Assembly: GCA_025362415.1 (NCBI GenBank)
Contig: JANYGM010000280.1
Coordinates: forward strand, 1 to 32,033
Reading direction: 5' to 3'
Length of the DNA stretch: 32,033 bases
Origin: a bacterium
GTDB lineage: Bacteria > Bacteroidota > Bacteroidia > Cytophagales > Thermonemataceae
In this document: positions 7,883-31,442 of the stretch, in pieces
Layout of the letters: every line of letters starts with the position of its first letter
Position numbering within the stretch: position 1 is the first letter of the stretch
The notes under the pieces: generated by a model
Databases searched by the model: none
Seen by the model: only the letters and a program-made list of their open reading frames with translations
Told to the model about the DNA's origin: nothing
Position numbers and translations under genes: made by a program

Positions 7883-10800
7883 ATGCGTAAAATTCTCCTA
7901 AAAATCTTTGATATTGAAGATAATGAGTTTGTACAAGTAATGTTGCTTCTTGCTATGGGTTTTGCTATTGGTGTTTTTTTGGCTACTTATGATGTGGCAA
8001 CTATGACACTTTTTGTAGGAAATCTCAATGAGAAAACAGATTTGCCACTTGCCGTAATGGCTACAGGTGGCGTAGGGATAGTATTTACTTATCTTTTTTC
8101 TTTCCTACAATCCAAAATATCTTACTCACGCCTTTCTGTGGGGGTTTTATTCATTATTTTAGTTTCCCTAATTGCTATTCGTGTGGGATATGGTGAGATA
8201 ACGCCAGAAACAATGAAAAACAAAAAAGAACTTATTTTCCTTTCATTAGTGCTTATGGGTCCTTTTGATGCACTTTTATTGCTGATTTTTTGGGGAAGTA
8301 TTGCTCGTATGTTTGTCTTGAAACAACAAAAACGTATTGTGGGTGGCGTGGATATTGGGAAAGGGGTTGCAACACTTATAGCTTTCCTTACTATTCCTAT
8401 TATTTCTAACTTTTTGCCAAATACGGCAGACCTTACTTACATCAGTATTGTAGCCTTATTTATCATTATTGGTATTTATTTGGCTATCATAGCTAAATCT
8501 CCTTTGCTCGCACAAGGCAAGCAAAAGCGGGTACGTACACGAGGGGAAGAGGCAAAAAAAGTGGCTACATTTGGCATTGGAACAATATTAAAGAATAAAT
8601 ATATTGTTTCTATGATGCTTTTTATTATGTTTGCTATGATAGGAAGTAAATTTGTTGATTATACTTTTGTCAATGTAATGGGGCAACAATACCCAGATGA
8701 GAAAGATTTGCAGAACTTTATTGCCGTTTTCCAAGGGATTACGCTAGTTTTTGCCCTTATTATTCAGATTTTTGTGAGTGATTGGCTGGTAGAAACTTAC
8801 GGCTTACGGGTAACACTTCTCATAAATCCTATACTTCTGATTGTTTTTACTGCTTTATGTGCTGTTATTGGTACTTTTATGGGCTTTGAACCTGCGTCAA
8901 GTGGTTTTATTTTGTTCTTTTTGGCAGTAGCTTTGAGCAAACTTTTTACCAGCTCCCTCAAAGATGCCGTTGATGATGCTGTATTTAAGTTTTTCTACTT
9001 TCCTATTGATGCAACCATACGCTTAGACGTAATGGCACGTATGGACGGAATTATAAAAGTAGGTTCTGGGCTTATTGCAGGGCTTATTTTGACAGGAATA
9101 CAAGTTTTGCATTTTTCTAGTTTGCTTCTTTTTATCTTTGCACTTATTCCAATTATTATAGGTTGGGTTTTTGCAACAAATAGAATGTACGAAAAATACC
9201 GCATTACATTGCAAGAAACGCTGATTAGTACCAAAAACAAAGCAGTCAAAAATGTTAATAGTGAGTTTTCTATTGATAGAATGCTTTTGGGTGAAATTAA
9301 AAGCGACAACCCAGATAAGGTTATTTTTGCCCTCAAACTAATGGAAAAATTAGAGCCGACACTTTTTGAAGAAAAAATGGTTGCTTTGGCTAATAAGGCT
9401 AATTTTCCTACGGTGCAAGACTATGCAATGAACAAAATTGAGGCTCTCAACATCACACAAGAGGGTATTACTTCTTTCAAACAAATGACTGATGAAGAAA
9501 TACGCAAACAAGTAAAATCAAGAAATATCAATGATAGATTAGAAATAGCTAAGATTTTTCATACTGTTGCTAATCCAAAAAATGAATATTTATTGATAGA
9601 ATTATTGCGTGATATTGATTTTAAAGTACGTTTGTATGCTATTCACGCAGCACGAAAAATCAAAAAACCAGAATCTTGGAATATTCTCATTGATGCCTTG
9701 CCCTCTGCTTTGCTAGGAAATGCCGCTGCTGCTGCCCTGATTGCTATGGGTGATGATGTTTTGCCATTTTTGGAAGCCTCTTTCCAAAAAACAGGACAAA
9801 ATGAACATATTATGTCCCGTATTGTGCAAATTTATGGCAGAATTGGTACACCAAAGGCTATTTCTTTGCTGTGGGGCAAACTTTCGTACCCAGACCAAGA
9901 AGTCATAGAACAAGCTCTTTTTGCATTTAGTTATAATAATATCAAAGTACCAATAGACAAACACACGCTTATCAACCATATTATAGAAGTTGAAATTGGA
10001 GATGCTGCGTGGGATATTGCCGCACTTTCAGAGATAAAAGATGCTCCTTATAATGAATATCTTATCAAATCTCTCAAAGATGAGGTAGCTTATAACTTTG
10101 AAAGTATTTTTACTTTGTTGTCTTTGATATATGATTACCAATCTATACAACTTGTAAAAGATTGTTTAGAAAGTGACCAAGCAGACGGCAAAATGTTTGC
10201 TATTGAGCTTTTGGATATGTTTTTGGCTGATGAACTCAAACCAAAACTTTTTCCTATTTTGGAAGATATTAAAAATGAAGAAAAAGTAGAAAAATTGCAG
10301 ATTTATTTCCCTCGTGAAAAATTTAATTCTGTTGATGTTCTAAAACACCTTATCAGTAGAGATTATACTTTTACTAACCGTTGGACACGTGCCACCGCTA
10401 TTTATTCTCTTGGAAATACACAAGATTTGATTGGTTTGGAGGAGCTAAAAGCTAATTTATTTCACCCAGACCCACTTTTGTATGAAACTTCTGCGTGGGC
10501 AATTTGTGTACACGACCGCCCACAATATGAGGCTATGAAAGACCGTTTGCACAAAAAAGTAATGCTTGAAATTGATGAAGTAATGAAAAAAGCATTAGGA
10601 AATACCATTGAAATAATGCCTTTGAGGATACAAAAAACAATGTTTTTGAAAGAAATTGACTTTTTCCAAAATATTCCTTCTGATATTGTTTCTGAAATTG
10701 TGGAACTCATACAAGTACGCAAAATTGCAAGAGATACCATAGTTTTGCACAAAGGACAAAATGCGGAAAGTCCTATTTATGTTGTGGTTAGTGGTCGTTT

Positions 10801-11050
10801 GGCTTCTTTTGGAGATGATGATAAAATCATAAAAACTTACGAACAAAGGGAAATTTTTGGAGAAAAATTAGTGGGAGATGATGATTTTTATGAGCGTGAT
10901 ATTGTTGCCACAGAGCCTACTGTGCTTTTTGAGATAGATAAAAACCAATTTTTTGAGATGCTCACCCATAATCACGAGTTTGCACGTGGTTTTATTGATG
11001 CAGTTGGTAAACATTTTGAAGATACAATGGTGGAGGCAAAACGAGTGTAA
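7883..11050 (+). CDS. Fusion of multi-TM transporter-like domain (ADP/ATP translocase/MFS-like), HEAT-like repeats and C-terminal cyclic-nucleotide-binding-like domain
   Basis: About 12 hydrophobic segments, then helical repeats (VRLYAIHAARKI), then FFQNIPSDIVSEIVE..VVVSGRLASF..EIFGEKLVGDDDFYERDIVA. Confidence 0.75.
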   Translation: MRKILLKIFDIEDNEFVQVMLLLAMGFAIGVFLATYDVATMTLFVGNLNEKTDLPLAVMATGGVGIVFTYLFSFLQSKISYSRLSVGVLFIILVSLIAIRVGYGEITPETMKNKKELIFLSLVLMGPFDALLLLIFWGSIARMFVLKQQKRIVGGVDIGKGVATLIAFLTIPIISNFLPNTADLTYISIVALFIIIGIYLAIIAKSPLLAQGKQKRVRTRGEEAKKVATFGIGTILKNKYIVSMMLFIMFAMIGSKFVDYTFVNVMGQQYPDEKDLQNFIAVFQGITLVFALIIQIFVSDWLVETYGLRVTLLINPILLIVFTALCAVIGTFMGFEPASSGFILFFLAVALSKLFTSSLKDAVDDAVFKFFYFPIDATIRLDVMARMDGIIKVGSGLIAGLILTGIQVLHFSSLLLFIFALIPIIIGWVFATNRMYEKYRITLQETLISTKNKAVKNVNSEFSIDRMLLGEIKSDNPDKVIFALKLMEKLEPTLFEEKMVALANKANFPTVQDYAMNKIEALNITQEGITSFKQMTDEEIRKQVKSRNINDRLEIAKIFHTVANPKNEYLLIELLRDIDFKVRLYAIHAARKIKKPESWNILIDALPSALLGNAAAAALIAMGDDVLPFLEASFQKTGQNEHIMSRIVQIYGRIGTPKAISLLWGKLSYPDQEVIEQALFAFSYNNIKVPIDKHTLINHIIEVEIGDAAWDIAALSEIKDAPYNEYLIKSLKDEVAYNFESIFTLLSLIYDYQSIQLVKDCLESDQADGKMFAIELLDMFLADELKPKLFPILEDIKNEEKVEKLQIYFPREKFNSVDVLKHLISRDYTFTNRWTRATAIYSLGNTQDLIGLEELKANLFHPDPLLYETSAWAICVHDRPQYEAMKDRLHKKVMLEIDEVMKKALGNTIEIMPLRIQKTMFLKEIDFFQNIPSDIVSEIVELIQVRKIARDTIVLHKGQNAESPIYVVVSGRLASFGDDDKIIKTYEQREIFGEKLVGDDDFYERDIVATEPTVLFEIDKNQFFEMLTHNHEFARGFIDAVGKHFEDTMVEAKRV

Positions 11051-18832: not shown

Positions 18833-19969
18833 TCAAGATTTCTCTTTTAAAATATCTGCCCATTGTTCTAAATGAAAATCCTTAATTTCCGTAGATTTTC
18901 CTGCGTCTTCTATCAAATTTCTAGTATAAATTTTTATAAACTCTTCATAATCATCAATAAATCTCAAATAATATTTCAATGTACTCACAATTCCGTTGGC
19001 AATAATATCAATTCCTTGCGTTTTTTTGAGTTCTAAGATAGAATTAATCACTTCTTTTTCTGTTTCAGCGTTCTTAAAACCACTTTTAAAAGTCGTTAAG
19101 ATATAATAACGGTTAATTTTGGTATTGTGAGATTTTTTAGCAACATCAAAAATCAAATATTTATCTATTGGGATATTATGCTTAATTTCTATAATTTCAA
19201 ATGGCTGATTATCAAGCGTGTAAATTTCAATATCTCCAAAGCTGTGTTTGTCTGATGATGTGTGTACCTGCAAAGGAACAAGTTTTTTATCCTTGTATCT
19301 TTCAAATTTTGGCAGTAAAGCCTCATAAATAGAATAAATAGCAATTACAGGCAAACGAGAACTCAATTTTGCTTCAAAATGTTTTTCTAACATCTTGATA
19401 ATCAAATGTATATTTAGTGTTTCTAGATTTTTTGTTTCAAAATTAGCGTTTTCAAAAACTATTTGTGTAGCTTTTGCAAGTATAATCAATTTTGCAAAAA
19501 CGTACTCTAAATAATCATTAGGATTAATATTTTGGATTTCAACATCATCAAAAATATTCAAAAAACATTCTTTGAGTTGCTTATCTCTAATTTTTAAATC
19601 TAATCCTTCTATTTTTGTCCATTTTATGCGTTCTCTTGTAGCTAAAGTGAGAAAAGAACTTTCTTTATTCGCATATTTTGGAAAATTATCTTTGAAAAAT
19701 GGGGAGGTAACCTGCGTGTCTAACACTCGGGCAGAATAACCATTCTCAAAATCTGTTCTATGTAAACGTATATCCTGTGTTGGAGTAGTGATTTTTTTCA
19801 ATAAACTTGTTACAAGTGCAGAAACCAAAGATTTATTACTATCAATTTTACTAATAAGCACATCAATATTTATTTTTATACTTGAAGAAATAGCATTAAA
19901 ATCTATATTTTGAGCATTTTGATAGGCATTTTCTAAAATAGTTTTCTCTTGTTGATTGTTTTTTATCAT
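18833..19969 (-). CDS. Putative type II restriction endonuclease (possibly SacI-like)
   Basis: SFGDIEIYTLDNQPFEIIEIKHN (D...ExK); 4-bp overlap with adjacent DNA methyltransferase. Confidence 0.7.
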   Translation of the reverse strand: MIKNNQQEKTILENAYQNAQNIDFNAISSSIKINIDVLISKIDSNKSLVSALVTSLLKKITTPTQDIRLHRTDFENGYSARVLDTQVTSPFFKDNFPKYANKESSFLTLATRERIKWTKIEGLDLKIRDKQLKECFLNIFDDVEIQNINPNDYLEYVFAKLIILAKATQIVFENANFETKNLETLNIHLIIKMLEKHFEAKLSSRLPVIAIYSIYEALLPKFERYKDKKLVPLQVHTSSDKHSFGDIEIYTLDNQPFEIIEIKHNIPIDKYLIFDVAKKSHNTKINRYYILTTFKSGFKNAETEKEVINSILELKKTQGIDIIANGIVSTLKYYLRFIDDYEEFIKIYTRNLIEDAGKSTEIKDFHLEQWADILKEKS

Positions 19970-21045
19970 ACAAAAAGTTCTTGGGTAAAAGTTACTTGTT
20001 TTAGCCTTTCATTGCTAATATTTACATACTCTGGATTTATTTCAACACCTAAATACTTACGTTTGAGGTTTTTAGCTGCCACACAAGTAGTACCACTACC
20101 ACAAAAAGGGTCTAAAACTACATCATTTTCTTTACTTAAAAGCTTAATAAGTTCTTGTATAATATATAACGGATAAACAGCTGGATGTTGGTTATCTTTG
20201 GTCATTTCAACGGGGCTTTCAATTAAATCTTTTTTTAATTTATTTCCCAGAATTTTGATAATTGTAAACCCATTATTACGTATTTGGTTGTTTCTACCAC
20301 CTTCCATTCCACCATAAGCCTCTTTATGAATGCCTTTTATTTTCATTCTAAAACTATCTATTTCGCCATTATGTACTGCTAAAATCACTTCTTGTAAAGA
20401 TTTTCTAGCAGTTTCTTTTTGAGAAATTTCCAAATCTGAATTTTCAATCAATTCAAAATACTGTTTTCCTAACTTATCTGATGGCTTACTTTTACTACTT
20501 TTATTGAGGTCATCAAGATGTTTTAGATAGTTTTCCAAATCAAAATGATAATTCTTTGATTTAGCAAATATAAAAAATGGTTCTGTTGCTTGTATGAGTT
20601 TTCTTTTATCTTGTCGTGGTGTAGGATTAAGTTTAGACCACGTAATTTGGTTAATCAAAAAAACTTTTTTATCTTCAATGGCTTTGATAGCAAATTTATA
20701 AGGCAAAAGAGACAATGCGCCATTGATATATTTGTCGCCCAAATTAAATACAATAGCCCCTGTGGGCTTTGTTACTCGCACACATTCAGAGAAGATATTT
20801 AGTAAATTTTCTAAATATTCCTCTTCTGTGGCTTCGTTTCCAACACCAAAATCTCCATTTCCATAATCCCTTTGCTGAAAATATGGCGGAGAAGTTATCA
20901 CCAAATCAATACTATCTGTTGCTATTTTTTTCAGTACAACAAGGCAATCACCAATAATAATTTTATCTAGTGCATCAAATGATACATCATTACAATTATT
21001 ATCAACTAATATTTTTTCTATTGGTATTCCTGTTAATATTTCCAT
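19966..21045 (-). CDS. Site-specific DNA methyltransferase (N4/N6, TSPPY type)
   Basis: VITSPPYFQQRDYG early, DPFCGSGTTCVAAKNLKRKYLGVEINPEY late (beta-like order); start refined to MEILTG. Confidence 0.9.
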   Translation of the reverse strand: MEILTGIPIEKILVDNNCNDVSFDALDKIIIGDCLVVLKKIATDSIDLVITSPPYFQQRDYGNGDFGVGNEATEEEYLENLLNIFSECVRVTKPTGAIVFNLGDKYINGALSLLPYKFAIKAIEDKKVFLINQITWSKLNPTPRQDKRKLIQATEPFFIFAKSKNYHFDLENYLKHLDDLNKSSKSKPSDKLGKQYFELIENSDLEISQKETARKSLQEVILAVHNGEIDSFRMKIKGIHKEAYGGMEGGRNNQIRNNGFTIIKILGNKLKKDLIESPVEMTKDNQHPAVYPLYIIQELIKLLSKENDVVLDPFCGSGTTCVAAKNLKRKYLGVEINPEYVNISNERLKQVTFTQELFV

Positions 21046-21058
21046 TTTTATTGGTTTT

Positions 21059-21439
21059 TTAATTTTTCTCTTCTTTTTTCCCTCCAAAAAGTCCAAAAAT
21101 CCTGCCAAACATTCGTTTTTCAAAGTTCCAAAAAAACGTAAATTGCCCCAATAAAAAACCATAAAACAACAATAAAATCTGATAAGCGGGGAAAACAGTA
21201 GCTAACCACACACCTATACGTGTGAGTAAGGGCGTTTCAGGCGTGATGCCCAAAAACGCATAAATAGGGATTTTGACGTACATTGCAGAGAAACCCGTTA
21301 ATGCAAAAACAAGAAAAATAATTAGCACTTGCCAATTATTTTTCACGTCCCAACGTACTTTTAATTTTTCTAAAAAACTCAATATGATGTGTGATATATG
21401 ATGTATGATGTATAAATTGTGTTTTTTGTATTCATTCAC
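21059..21439 (-). CDS. Small membrane protein, DUF6787-like
   Basis: KVRWDVKNNWQVLIIFLVFALTGFSAMYVKIPIYAFLGI; three hydrophobic segments; N-terminus uncertain. Confidence 0.6.
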   Translation of the reverse strand: MNEYKKHNLYIIHHISHIILSFLEKLKVRWDVKNNWQVLIIFLVFALTGFSAMYVKIPIYAFLGITPETPLLTRIGVWLATVFPAYQILLLFYGFLLGQFTFFWNFEKRMFGRIFGLFGGKKEEKN

Positions 21440-23257: not shown

Positions 23258-24499
23258 TTAGAGAAGGTTGGGCAAAATAATAATTACTTCTGTTCCAATA
23301 TTGATTTCACTTTGTAATGTTACATTTCCTTTCAGTTTTTGTAAACAATTTTTTACTACATACAAGCCTACACCAGAGCCTTTGGAAGTAGCATTATGTT
23401 TGAAAAACATTGTAAAAACCTTATCCTGCACGTTTTTTTCTATTCCTTGTCCGTTATCAGAAACAATTATTTGCAAATTTTTATTTTCTTGTTGCGTGAT
23501 TTTAAATAAAATATTTTTCTTAGAAGTTTTATTTGCAAAGGAAATAGCATTATCTATCAAATTTTGCATAATTGTACGTATCAAATAACGGTCACTCACA
23601 AACAAATCAGGTGCGTTTATTTCCATCTGAAAGTCAATATTTTCACGCATAAAATCCTTAGAAAACTGTTGTTTTACCTTTGTAGCAAGCTCGTGAACAT
23701 CTATTTCTGTTACTTCTACATCTAAATATTTGATTTTGGTAACTTCCAACAAAGTAATCAAAATTCTATTCAATTTTTCAGAATTTTCTGCAATCATACC
23801 CAAATAACGCTGTGCATTTTCGTCTTGTAGCTCCACTTTTGCCAGATTAGAAAGCCCAATAAGTGAAGCAATAGGTCCACGTAAGTCGTGAGAAGCCCTA
23901 TAAACAAATGTATCTAGTTCTTTTACAGAAGTATTAAATTGTTCTTCTAACTCTCTATGTTCTGTCATTTCCTTCAACAATTCTTCATAAACTTCCTGCA
24001 ATTCTTTGGTACGGTCAGAGAGTTGTTGGTCTAAATATTTGCGGTATTCTATTATTTCTGTATTATTTTGAAGAAGTTTTTTTATTTCAAATTGATATTT
24101 TTGTTGAGAATGGATATTTGCTAATAATTTTTGTATATTTTCCAAAATAAGCGTATCAGAAACAAATTCTTTATACAAAAAATGATGTGCGCCAAGTTTC
24201 AATCCTTCTTCTATTTGAGCGTTTTGAGCAGGTGTAGCAAGCAAAATAATTCCTACATTATCAGGGAAAAAATGCCTTCTAACGGCTTCTACAAAACTTT
24301 TTATGTCCAAATTAGGTAAACTCAAATTTATCAAAATAACATCAATACTTTCCCAAACAATAGTATTACTTAGCATACCCCGCAAAGTATTCTGATGCAA
24401 AAGTGATAATTTTATTTTATTTTCTTTCACTTTTTCTGATAAAGATAAAAATAGCTTACTATCTTCATCAAGAAACAATATTTTTGGAGTGCTTGCCAT
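23258..24499 (-). CDS. REC-like / histidine kinase protein
   Basis: N-terminal receiver fold; FVYRASHDLRGPIASLIGLSNLA (HisKA); NLIDNAISFA, DNGQGI, GSGVGLYVVK (HATPase). Confidence 0.9.
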   Translation of the reverse strand: MASTPKILFLDEDSKLFLSLSEKVKENKIKLSLLHQNTLRGMLSNTIVWESIDVILINLSLPNLDIKSFVEAVRRHFFPDNVGIILLATPAQNAQIEEGLKLGAHHFLYKEFVSDTLILENIQKLLANIHSQQKYQFEIKKLLQNNTEIIEYRKYLDQQLSDRTKELQEVYEELLKEMTEHRELEEQFNTSVKELDTFVYRASHDLRGPIASLIGLSNLAKVELQDENAQRYLGMIAENSEKLNRILITLLEVTKIKYLDVEVTEIDVHELATKVKQQFSKDFMRENIDFQMEINAPDLFVSDRYLIRTIMQNLIDNAISFANKTSKKNILFKITQQENKNLQIIVSDNGQGIEKNVQDKVFTMFFKHNATSKGSGVGLYVVKNCLQKLKGNVTLQSEINIGTEVIIILPNLL

Positions 24500-26470: not shown

Positions 26471-27739
26471 TTATTTACGCCAATTATCTACCACTAATTG
26501 CCAAATAGTAGCATATTCTGTATAGCGTGCAAGTACATAATGCTCGTCTGTATAAGCATTTGCACGTCTAGAAAACGTAAAAATAGCTTTTGCAAAAGAA
26601 GGGTGATTAAGGTAAGTCCATTGAACTACATCACGTCCTTTAATAGTTTCTGTTGGTGTTCCGAGTAAAACAAAAACCATTCCCATATCAGTTTTCCAAC
26701 CATCTTTATGCGTTGAAAAGGTCAAATTAGCCTCTTTGATACGTTGATAATAGCGTTTTATCAAATTTTTAGCATTTATTTCATTTCCCTCTGCCAAAAT
26801 AAGGAAAAACTTATCTAATTCTTGCTTAATATTGTTCTGTTTATCATTTTTATTATCATTTTTGTCTTCCTTTTTATTGATAATTTCTGAAAATTTTTCT
26901 ATTTCATTATTTTTAAAAATATAGGTTAAAGCAGCAACCAAGTCCGTTTTTTCTGCTATTTTAGGGAAAAATTTATCTTCTATTCTTAAACTCAAACCAT
27001 AAAAATCAGCGGTATCTTTTTTGAAAAAACATAGTCCTTTTTCTGTAAAACTAATATTTTCATTCGTTTTATTGATTTTGAAAATGTCTTCTACTTTTTT
27101 GGGGATATTGGCATTTTTAGTCAAATTCATTGGAGTAAGTGCCATATCTGTTTGAATGTCAGCATCTTTATAAAAGAAATTTCTAATAAGAATTTCCTTT
27201 TTTGCAATATTTTTGACAGAAAACATTTCATTTTGAAAAACATAACCATCAAAGCAAGGAAACTCACTTTTTTGTAAAAAAACTGCAAATTCATCACGCA
27301 GACGTGTGTTTGTAAAATTTATTTTTAGGTCAAAATTGTATTTTGTATTATCCAAAATATTCATCATCTCAAAAAATAAAATAGCTGTAGCAATGTTTTG
27401 ACGTGCTATTTGGAAATAAAACTTAATCCCGTCCTCTTCTTTGGTAATTTGTTGTGGAATTATTTTTGTTGATGTAGGTTTTGCTGACCTATAATCTTGT
27501 GCTATATAATATTCAAAAACAAAATTTTTGGTAATATTTTCTGTTTGTTGCCAGTCTTTAAGGTCGTTTTGAAGGCGTACATACACACGCAAACTATCCC
27601 CATTATGTAAAGAAAGCATTTTTAGGCGAAATCCGTGCTTGTTGGTGGCGTTTTCTATTTGCGTATTTATTTGTGCTTTTATTTCAAAAACAGTATAGCA
27701 AAAAACACAGAAGAATGCAATAAATATTTTTATTTTCAT
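26471..27739 (-). CDS. GWxTD domain protein
   Basis: Signal peptide; DGWKTDMGMVFVLLGTPTETIKGRDVVQWTY. Confidence 0.85.
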   Translation of the reverse strand: MKIKIFIAFFCVFCYTVFEIKAQINTQIENATNKHGFRLKMLSLHNGDSLRVYVRLQNDLKDWQQTENITKNFVFEYYIAQDYRSAKPTSTKIIPQQITKEEDGIKFYFQIARQNIATAILFFEMMNILDNTKYNFDLKINFTNTRLRDEFAVFLQKSEFPCFDGYVFQNEMFSVKNIAKKEILIRNFFYKDADIQTDMALTPMNLTKNANIPKKVEDIFKINKTNENISFTEKGLCFFKKDTADFYGLSLRIEDKFFPKIAEKTDLVAALTYIFKNNEIEKFSEIINKKEDKNDNKNDKQNNIKQELDKFFLILAEGNEINAKNLIKRYYQRIKEANLTFSTHKDGWKTDMGMVFVLLGTPTETIKGRDVVQWTYLNHPSFAKAIFTFSRRANAYTDEHYVLARYTEYATIWQLVVDNWRK

Positions 27740-28545: not shown

Positions 28546-28830
28546 CTAAAAAATAGTTACAGAAATATCCAAAGTAGTGGCATTGATAGTTTCACCCAAT
28601 CCAGAAAAGGCTATCAGTTGGCTTATTTCTACATAATTGAGTTTTTGGCTTATTTCTACATAATTGAGTTTTATGCTTTTCCCTATACCAAATTTTTGGT
28701 CAGCTTTGAGCGCACCCATTGTGCAAAAACCTGCACTACTGCAACCCTGCCCAAGTATCTGCCCAAATTCTAAGCAAAAAATAAGCACTAATAATGATTT
28801 TAAAAATATTTTTGAAATTGATTTTTTCAT
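28546..28830 (-). pseudogene. N-terminal remnant of a secreted/outer-membrane protein
   Basis: Signal peptide, GQGCSSAGFCTMGALK motif, then early end at 94 aa; contains a perfect 27-bp tandem duplication. Confidence 0.45.
28619..28672. repeat. 27-bp perfect tandem duplication
   Basis: (TGGCTTATTTCTACATAATTGAGTTTT)x2. Confidence 0.95.
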
Positions 28831-28931: not shown

Positions 28932-28962
28932 TTTGCATTTAGCTATTTTTTAGCTACTTTTG
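28932..28962 (+). promoter_or_regulatory. Bacteroidota-type promoter of GTPase operon
   Basis: TTTG-N19-TACTTTTG. Confidence 0.65.
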
Positions 28963-29010
28963 GCAAAGATTATACATATTAAAGAAATTAAAAATCTAGT
29001 ATAGAAGCCT

Positions 29011-29970
29011 TTGGAACAAGAAGCAAATAATAGTGGTAAGAAAGTAGACGTTTTTTTTGAAATGTTTGAGGAAGCCTTGCGCCAAGAAAATCAGCGTTTG
29101 AAAATTATCTATGAAAAGCAACTTGAAGGCATCAAAGAAGAACTCATTAAAGCAAATGCCAATATTCCAGAGGTTGTTGCCCCTGTGGTAGATAAAAAAG
29201 TAGAAGAATTTAAAGTTGAATTTGATGGACAATCTGGAAAAATGGTTACGACTGCCATAAAAAAACAAATAAAAGAATCTCAACCAGATATCATAGATGC
29301 ACTTTATCCTATTATGGGAAAACTTATTACTAAGTTTTTGCAAATAGAATTAGAAAAACTTTCTGAAGGTATCAATAAACAAATTGAAAATACTTTTTCT
29401 GTAGAAAGTATGAAAAGGCAGGTTTTTAGTATTTTTGGTATCAAACAAGATGCACAAATTCTCAAAAATGCCAACAAACCAAATGTTGAAGAGGCGTATG
29501 TGATAGAACAAGATTCTGGAATGTTGCTTGCAGAATATACACACAATGATTCTGTGGACAATGATATGGTAGCAGGTATGATTACGGCTATAAAATCTTT
29601 TGTGAAAGATGCTTTTTATCAAGATGGAGAGTTGGATATGATAGAATATGGCACTTTTAAGATTATTCTCTACAATGCACGCAAATATTACCTTGTGGCT
29701 GCCCTAAAAGGAGTCGTAGATTCTACTTATAAATATAGAGTTCTTGATTATTTGAAAGTTTTTGACGAAAATTATCTTTCCAAAATAGAAAATCAGGGAA
29801 ATCAATTAGACAATAAAGCTGCGTCAGATGCTCTTACAGCACATTTTGATGCCTTTGAAAATTTTAATACAAGCACTAACACCTTTAACACACTCAATAC
29901 TAAATTAAATAAAATAGATGAAACAATTAAGCAAAAAAGTCATTTTAATTGGAAATTTTGGCGTTGGTAA
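29011..29970 (+). CDS. Coiled-coil protein with roadblock/longin-like C-terminal domain
   Basis: TTG start; AYVIEQDSGMLLAEYTHND..DNDMVAGMITAIKSFVKDAF...IEYGTFKIILYNARKYYLVAALKG. Confidence 0.6.
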   Translation: MEQEANNSGKKVDVFFEMFEEALRQENQRLKIIYEKQLEGIKEELIKANANIPEVVAPVVDKKVEEFKVEFDGQSGKMVTTAIKKQIKESQPDIIDALYPIMGKLITKFLQIELEKLSEGINKQIENTFSVESMKRQVFSIFGIKQDAQILKNANKPNVEEAYVIEQDSGMLLAEYTHNDSVDNDMVAGMITAIKSFVKDAFYQDGELDMIEYGTFKIILYNARKYYLVAALKGVVDSTYKYRVLDYLKVFDENYLSKIENQGNQLDNKAASDALTAHFDAFENFNTSTNTFNTLNTKLNKIDETIKQKSHFNWKFWRW

Positions 29971-30424
29971 AACTTCGCTTACTAATGCTTTTGTTCATAA
30001 AAGATTTTCAGAAGACTACCTCACCACGCTTGGCGTTAAAATAGACAAGAAAACCATTGAAATACTTGCTCAAAATGATGACGAAGAAGATACACAACTA
30101 ACATTACTGATTTGGGATATTGCAGGGGAAGTGGCGCAAGAGAAAGTAAATAAAGCCTATTATCTTGGTTCTCACGGGATTATTTATGTTTTTGATGTTA
30201 CAAGACCTTCTACTTTTGAGAAAATGAAAGAAGATTTGGCATACGTAGCCACAATTTTGCCAAAAGCACAAGTAATTGTAGTTGGAAATAAAGTTGATTT
30301 AATTGATGTAAATACACTTGATGCAGATTTAAAATATGACTTTCTTTCTTCTGCAAAAACAGGAGAAAATGTGGAAAAAATGTTTTTGGAACTTAGTAAA
30401 AAAATTATTCAAGAACCAGCGTGA
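29918..30424 (+). CDS. Rab/Ras-like small GTPase
   Basis: GNFGVGKTS (G1), TTLGVKIDKKTIEI, WDIAGE (G3), GNKVDL (G4), SSAKTGENVEKMF (G5). Confidence 0.9.
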   Translation: MKQLSKKVILIGNFGVGKTSLTNAFVHKRFSEDYLTTLGVKIDKKTIEILAQNDDEEDTQLTLLIWDIAGEVAQEKVNKAYYLGSHGIIYVFDVTRPSTFEKMKEDLAYVATILPKAQVIVVGNKVDLIDVNTLDADLKYDFLSSAKTGENVEKMFLELSKKIIQEPA

Positions 30425-30927
30425 TGAATAAGCAAAAAAAAAATTTAAAGGAGCTAACAGAAATGCTGTCAATGCTCAAAAATATAGATAGAGATGAGCA
30501 ATTAGATGCAAACGACCTAGCATTTATAAATAGCGAAATTTCTCTTTGCAAAACTACTTTCAAAGTAATCTTAGTTATACTTTTGCTTATAAGTATTCTT
30601 GCATTATGGTTGTTTAGTATGTATTTTCAGATTATAACCTCTATTATGCTTAGTATTCCTTTCTTTGCTTTTTGTATTCTTATTTGTTGGGTAGTTAAGA
30701 AAATTCAGAGAAGATTAGAGTTAGACCTTGAAAATGGCTTTAAGGAATTTTCAAAAGATGTTATTACTAAGAAAGATTATACCAATGAATTACGATATTT
30801 TTACATCAATAAGGAAAAACATTTCGTAAGCAAAGAGGATTATGATGATTTTGAAGTAGGTGAGACCATTATAATAGGATTTTTACCTATTAGTAAAACA
30901 ATAATTGGTATTGCAAAAATAATTTAA
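30421..30927 (+). CDS. Two-TM protein, tandem paralog 1
   Basis: QLDANDLAFINSEISLCKTTFKVILVILLL ... YFYINKEKHFVSKEDYDDFEVGETIIIGFLPISKTIIGIAKI; ATGA overlap with the GTPase. Confidence 0.75.
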   Translation: MMNKQKKNLKELTEMLSMLKNIDRDEQLDANDLAFINSEISLCKTTFKVILVILLLISILALWLFSMYFQIITSIMLSIPFFAFCILICWVVKKIQRRLELDLENGFKEFSKDVITKKDYTNELRYFYINKEKHFVSKEDYDDFEVGETIIIGFLPISKTIIGIAKII

Positions 30928-30986: not shown

Positions 30987-31442
30987 ATGAATAATCAAGG
31001 GAAACTTAACGCAAACGACCTAAAATTTGTAGAAAAAGAACTTAGTAATTATGGGCTTGCCTACAAGATTATTCCTGTTTTTCTTCTTTTGATGTATTTT
31101 TTTATGATTTGGGTTTCTGGTGAAGCCTTTAATAGTGTGTTTTCTATTATTTTTGTCGTGATGTTGGTTCTTTTTTATGGTTTGGCTTATTGGTTACTCC
31201 AAAAACAACAAAAAATACTAGAAATAGACATTCAAAATGGTTTTAAAGAAATTATAATGGGCGTAATTAGTGATAAAATATCAAAGAAAAAATCTCTAAT
31301 TTTTAAAATTAACAAAGAGAAATATATTATAACAAATGAGCATTATATGGCTTTTGAAGAAAATGACAAGGTAAAACTAGAGATTTTGCCTATTAGCAAA
31401 ACGGTCATTAGCATTATTAAGATTGAAAAAAACAATGAATAA
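30987..31442 (+). CDS. Two-TM protein, tandem paralog 2
   Basis: KLNANDLKFVEKELSNYGLAYKIIPVFLLL ... IFKINKEKYIITNEHYMAFEENDKVKLEILPISKTVISIIKI. Confidence 0.75.
   Translation: MNNQGKLNANDLKFVEKELSNYGLAYKIIPVFLLLMYFFMIWVSGEAFNSVFSIIFVVMLVLFYGLAYWLLQKQQKILEIDIQNGFKEIIMGVISDKISKKKSLIFKINKEKYIITNEHYMAFEENDKVKLEILPISKTVISIIKIEKNNE

Follow-up and report, generated by a model that had tools for sequence, protein, structure and literature searches.

Group 1 Rup systems were described computationally in 2014 by Wuichet and Sogaard-Andersen (PMC4316618). They comprise a coiled-coil protein, a DUF protein, a Rab-like GTPase that lacks the catalytic Gln, and an output enzyme carrying a conserved Gln that, as the authors proposed, would be supplied in trans; the DUF protein often has a membrane helix and an OmpA domain, although these are not obligatory (PMC4316618). 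At that time the second conserved Rup protein was a domain of unknown function, the GAP was unknown, and no Rup GTPase had been characterised (PMC4316618). No experimental work on Rup GTPases after 2014 was found in the literature searched, from which subscription journals were mostly absent. Among eukaryotic systems, Mon1-Ccz1 grips residues F33 and Y37 of Ypt7, and the helix equivalent to helix a1 described below forms the GTPase-binding surface in Mon1-Ccz1 and TRAPP (PMC5216073). The longin and roadblock folds are related by circular permutation and bind GTPases in a similar way (PMC3521125).

The locus compared here with these systems lies in a stretch of 32,033 nucleotides (contig JANYGM010000280.1), hereafter the window, and consists of a gene for a 319-aa protein (P1) and a gene for a small GTPase of 168 aa. 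The ORF coordinates confirmed the 53-bp overlap between the two genes that the first-pass annotation of the window had claimed (Table 1). The overlap is real, because the in-frame ATG of the GTPase was kept at the equivalent place in 8/8 genomes of the window's family; the P-loop begins 11 residues after this ATG, which is the expected spacing, and the TTG start of P1 is consistent with the start points of its relatives. A strong promoter had also been proposed upstream of the pair. The motif was present, but the window contains 12 matches to the same pattern, TTTG-N19-TACTTTTG, where 4.6 would be expected, and for that reason the support for promoter strength is weak. Upstream of the pair there is a short ORF on the opposite strand (28546-28830, -) with an internal repeat, KLNYVEISQ, present twice. 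Elsewhere the window encodes a protein of 1055 aa that combines HEAT repeats with a cyclic-nucleotide-binding domain (7883-11050, +), an N6/N4 DNA methyltransferase (19966-21162, -) and a GWxTD-domain protein with a signal-peptide-like start (26471-27739, -).

Table 1. Features of the P1-GTPase locus, in window coordinates
Feature	Position	Strand	Evidence
Candidate Bacteroidota-type promoter, TTTG-N19-TACTTTTG	28932..28962	+	Exact pattern match
P1 gene (319 aa, TTG start at 29011)	29011..29970	+	ORF; relatives in 334 candidate loci; AlphaFold, Foldseek
P1 N-terminal predicted coiled coil	29014..29430	+	Long helices, pLDDT about 50-83
P1 predicted longin/roadblock-fold domain, order b-b-a-b-b-b-a-a	29482..29850	+	AlphaFold and Foldseek
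Predicted helix a1 of the domain, P1 residues 184-201	29560..29613	+	Most conserved P1 segment
Two-frame overlap, P1 C-terminus ..FNWKFWRW and stop with GTPase N-terminus to P-loop	29918..29970	+	
Rab-like small GTPase gene (Rup Group 1; 168 aa, ATG start at 29918)	29918..30424	+	Pfam Ras 8.3e-30; best PDB match Rab14
G1 P-loop GNFGVGKT	29951..29974	+	G12, V16, G17, K18 in 80/80 (best 80 of 334)
Switch I FSEDYLTT	30005..30028	+	F30, Y34 in 80/80 (best 80 of 334)
G3 WDIAGE	30113..30130	+	W66, D67, G70 in 80/80 (best 80 of 334); Glu71 replaces catalytic Gln
G4 NKVD	30287..30298	+	N124, K125, D127 in 80/80 (best 80 of 334)
G5 SSAK	30347..30358	+	S145, A146 in 80/80 (best 80 of 334)

The earlier reading of the 168-aa protein as a Rab/Ras-like GTPase agreed with all searches. 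Besides the Pfam Ras match, the 60 best PDB matches were Rab-type GTPases, with single-sequence and profile searches in agreement, and the motifs named in that reading (GNFGVGKTS, TTLGVKIDKK, WDIAGE, NKVDL and SSAKTGENVE) were all found. Glu at the position of the catalytic Gln was likewise correctly read, and it occupied position 71 in 12/12 sequences of the first alignment. Among the best 80 of 334 relatives this position was more variable (E 33, N 21, T 11, K 6, S 4, Y 3, V 1, Q 1), the single Gln71 being that of locus L076. The missing catalytic Gln is a Group 1 Rup trait, and therefore E71 is a feature of the family and not a peculiarity of this protein. In our reading of the alignment, F30 and Y34 of switch I would correspond to F33 and Y37 of Ypt7.

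Sequence searches with P1 gave little. No family reached its cut-off when the window P1 was searched against Pfam and NCBIfam, PDB sequence searches with P1 and with its profile returned coiled-coil-type noise only, and matches of P1 or its relatives to DUF4924, DUF6120 and apolipoprotein were judged to be coiled-coil noise as well. A viral fold library gave nothing at E <= 0.001, with weak matches to giant-virus longins and synaptobrevin. Twelve of 63 P1 members matched Pfam Fuz_longin_1 (first longin of FUZ/MON1/HPS1) and 5/63 matched Intu_longin_1 (INTU, CCZ1, HPS4), all below the curated cut-offs and among related members, so that these matches are not independent of one another.

The AlphaFold model of P1 (63 sequences, monomer, overall pTM 0.50; residue numbers are P1 numbers minus one) left the coiled coil loosely modelled, while the following domain reached a pLDDT of 79-97 per 10-residue block, mostly above 90. 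The best PDB match of this domain in Foldseek was 5ldd, the Mon1-Ccz1-Ypt7 complex, with an E-value of 3.3e-5; the match covers one P1 domain with a TM-score of about 0.5 by target. The next matches were AP sigma, Rag, Ego3 and Ragulator chains, all of them with longin or roadblock folds. With a b-b-a-b-b-b core in the model and longin/roadblock chains as its best structure matches, P1 is confidently predicted to consist of a coiled coil and a longin/roadblock-fold domain. Thus, the roadblock/longin-type partner suggested by the first-pass annotation was recovered by modelling, and both the coiled coil and the AYVIEQDSG...MVAGM region were located where they had been placed. Two helices modelled with high pLDDT after the last (fifth) strand, at model residues 237-260 and 267-279, favour a longin over a roadblock arrangement, and a weaker helix predicted before strand 1 leaves some doubt. 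Within the domain, the predicted helix a1 had a mean conservation of 0.85, compared with 0.40-0.66 in the rest, and its residues G189, M190, T192, A193, K195 and F197 were present in 80/80 of the best 80 of 334 relatives. No Arg of P1 was kept above 58/80 in the same set, and an arginine finger in P1 is unlikely for this reason.

The pair resembles two further groups of described systems. With Mon1-Ccz1, TRAPP and FUZ-INTU it shares the predicted longin-type fold with a conserved a1, the sub-threshold Mon1/Fuz Pfam match, and a Rab-like partner with both switch I aromatics. It differs in that P1 is a single bacterial gene, which would give a homodimer if P1 dimerises, instead of a heterodimer, and in that nucleotide exchange is putative; moreover, the window GTPase has Leu at the position of Ypt7 K38, where 31/80 of the best 80 of 334 relatives have Lys. 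With MglA/MglB and the actinobacterial conservons it shares a small GTPase next to a roadblock/longin-type partner and a tie to two-component-type signalling. However, the G motifs of MglA are other than those of the window GTPase, and MglB matches Pfam Robl_LC7 whereas P1 does not: this family was neither among the window P1 matches at E-values up to 1 nor among the families listed for its relatives. A whole-genome search with Robl_LC7 hit contig C373 only, where a canonical MglA and two MglB-like proteins are encoded in one gene run (locus L144, 1556-3648). The source genome therefore encodes MglAB separately, and the pair is, as proposed earlier, distinct from the canonical MglA/MglB arrangement.

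The gene neighbourhood of P1 was surveyed at three scales. P1 was found in 12/59 genomes searched, including the window's own, and the GTPase gene adjoined it in 12/12. In a scan of 84,980 species, 334 P1 relatives were obtained, of which the best 80 were used for neighbourhood counts; these were nearly all from Bacteroidota (e.g., Raineya, Thermonema, Roseivirga, Polaribacter, Lacinutrix and Kordia) and included two gammaproteobacterial assemblies. The GTPase gene lay directly downstream of P1 in 79/80 of these loci, showing that the pair is conserved together; the exception was Thermoflexibacter ruber, where the GTPase gene stands beside the output gene on another contig. The pairing is far beyond chance, since both proteins are kept in related genera and are always neighbours there. 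The first-pass annotation had named two findings that would refute its idea, a partner without a roadblock/longin fold and a pair that is not kept together; both were checked, and neither was obtained. Of the same best 80 of 334 loci, 78 had an output gene next, in third place, and 71 had a small coiled-coil gene upstream. In nearly all relatives the P1 and GTPase genes lay near each other or overlapped, with spacings that ranged from overlaps of 8-14 nt to gaps. Only 13/297 sampled genomes of the phylum had P1, indicating that the system is patchy. At greater distance, Nostoc (a cyanobacterium) and Mesorhizobium (an alphaproteobacterium) match all four profiles, with the coiled coil first, then the P1 domain, the GTPase and the output module. 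In the Mesorhizobium record these are annotated, in turn, as a hypothetical protein, an OmpA family protein, a Rab family GTPase and a cyclase. The P1 domain also starts OmpA proteins: in distant P1 proteins of 590-640 aa it precedes a membrane helix, and an OmpA domain was present in 4/4 of those scanned.

All four parts of the system were found in the source genome, split over three contigs of an assembly that is 82% complete and in 499 contigs. The first-pass annotation had thus seen the P1-GTPase core of the unit and missed the usual third and fourth genes, which lie on other contigs. In most loci examined, the output module consists of an N-terminal domain followed by a histidine kinase with a receiver, while in the window's family the output enzyme is a SpoIIE phosphatase. 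The N-terminal domain was modelled with a mean pLDDT of 95 and matched PAS/LOV domains in Foldseek, so the output sensor is predicted to have a PAS fold. Its signalling helix carries a QxRN motif, with Q in 78/79 and N in 79/79 sequences. The output module of the source genome lies on contig C23 (L103), where VQQERND is combined with a SpoIIE domain, and shares 42% identity with its counterpart in the nearest relative. Because of this clear relative, a histidine kinase of the window (23258-24499) was set aside as output module on its domain order and its distance from the pair. The coiled-coil gene was found on contig C394 (L143) with an E-value of 1.5e-20, away from the pair. In the stretch L143, 2643-3758, a gene for a 236-aa coiled-coil-like protein directly follows it, also in related genomes, in which the two coiled-coil genes precede ComF-like genes; the 236-aa protein is possibly a fifth component.

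Judged by these sequence features, the P1-GTPase pair is the core of a Group 1 Rup system, and the proposal of an undescribed system does not hold: its features, the missing catalytic Gln included, are those set out in 2014. The window GTPase has eukaryote-like G1-G5 motifs and no catalytic Gln after the G3 DxxG; P1 is equated with the DUF protein by description and gene context; the cytoplasmic coiled-coil protein gene is present, though not adjacent to the pair in this organism; and the L103 output module has the conserved N-terminal Gln. On the other hand, the window P1 lacks the membrane helix and OmpA, the components of the organism are spread over three contigs with a SpoIIE phosphatase as output, the P1 tail is dual-coded with the GTPase P-loop, and two lineage-specific membrane genes follow the pair. 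The latter (30421-30927 and 30987-31442, +) encode predicted membrane proteins that share about 36% identity, and the first gene overlaps the GTPase stop. They have no assigned family and were rejected as system parts, being paralogues of each other, absent from the relatives' neighbourhoods and matched elsewhere only weakly, in a few genomes of the order.

The overlap itself is dual-coded. In the window's family the P1 stop TAA arises from P-loop codons 17-18 of the GTPase (GGT AAA), and P1 ends in F-N/D-W-K/Q-F-W-R-W. Among 8 genomes, 10/13 GTPase codons for invariant residues up to codon 18 were unchanged, compared with 2/49 outside (Fisher p 1.6e-7). Codons 19-21, just 3' of the P1 stop, vary, as do the same GTPase codons in relatives without the long overlap. 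The few changes seen within the overlap are conservative in P1 (S/G, N/D and K/Q); taken with the codons frozen up to the P1 stop, they suggest that the P1 tail is under selection as protein. As the window P1 has neither the membrane helix nor the OmpA domain seen in other lineages, we would guess that this aromatic, basic tail serves as a membrane contact or anchor.

The best explanation, and in our judgement a probable one, is that the locus is a Group 1 Rup core in which the longin a1 helices of P1 drive the GTPase cycle, with the output enzyme downstream. P1, with its coiled coil and longin-fold domain, would form a dimer, whose paired domains would bind the GTPase at its switch regions through their a1 helices and so drive its cycling between GDP and GTP; as with Mon1-Ccz1 and TRAPP, the most likely role of P1 would be that of an exchange factor or a loading platform. 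The GTP state should be long-lived, because the GTPase is without the catalytic Gln. In its GTP form the GTPase would engage the PAS sensor and the QxRN signalling helix of the output module and alter the activity of the output enzyme, in this genome a SpoIIE/PP2C-type phosphatase encoded on another contig. The membrane helix and peptidoglycan-binding OmpA domain of many P1 relatives suggest that the switch may receive information on the envelope or on position in the cell. The P1 of the window's family is soluble, with its tail as a possible membrane anchor. Points against this explanation are that the Pfam longin matches are sub-threshold, that the Foldseek matches cover one domain and include both of the permuted folds, that the P1 model is that of a monomer, and that the window pair has no adjacent output gene.

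The direction in which P1 would act on the GTPase does not follow from its fold alone, since MglB, the closest studied bacterial fold relative of P1, is a GAP with GEF activity also reported. P1 could in the same way be mainly a GAP that pins the switch loops, speeds hydrolysis and turns the system off. The similar GTPase-binding mode of the two permuted folds (PMC3521125) is compatible with such a role, and so is the lack of a well-conserved Arg in P1, as in GAPs without an arginine finger. However, MglB works by repositioning the catalytic Gln and Arg of the GTPase itself (PMC4316618), and that Gln is present in 1/80 of the best 80 of 334 relatives; the best fold matches are moreover the exchange-factor longins Mon1 and Ccz1, and we regard the GAP role as unlikely. 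Those Foldseek matches also include AP sigma, Ragulator and Ego3 chains, in line with P1 as a non-catalytic scaffold or effector-type platform, Ragulator- or adaptin-like, with the QxRN of the output module supplying the Gln and acting as GAP. The output Gln, kept in 78/79, fits the Gln-in-trans proposal of 2014 (PMC4316618), but the model places it on the long helix that follows the PAS core, where signals are usually relayed, and its contact with the GTPase is hypothetical; we give this arrangement a limited but real chance.

A long overlap that is kept in the window's family, with an unusually frozen sequence, would permit a programmed +1 frameshift producing a P1-GTPase fusion. Yet the in-frame GTPase ATG is retained throughout that family, relatives have the same two genes with short overlaps or gaps, and the codon freezing does not extend past the P1 stop, as would be expected from dual coding, making a fusion very improbable. 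That the best solved-structure matches of the GTPase are eukaryotic Rabs might point to recent acquisition from a eukaryote, with no relation to bacterial Rup proteins. This is scarcely credible, as the gene belongs to a bacterial set of four parts that is conserved in Bacteroidota, Cyanobacteria and Pseudomonadota, and the structure database may contain few bacterial relatives.

To our knowledge, the identification of P1 as a predicted longin protein with a GEF-like surface and the predicted PAS fold of the output sensor are new, as are a P1 without OmpA and the dual coding of a P1 tail within the P-loop codons of the GTPase. A longin/roadblock domain beside a Rab-like GTPase provides a testable candidate for the missing Rup regulator, and named environmental species with the intact four-gene neighbourhood are ready test systems. 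The longin domain is also relevant to the question of whether the partnership between longins and Rabs in eukaryotic trafficking is older than eukaryotes themselves. We suggest, tentatively, that a bacterial longin, by way of its a1 helices, is a genuine exchange factor of a Rab-like GTPase and is wired to a two-component or phosphatase output. If this is true, the longin-GEF/Rab pairing of eukaryotic membrane traffic would have a working bacterial counterpart, without vesicles.
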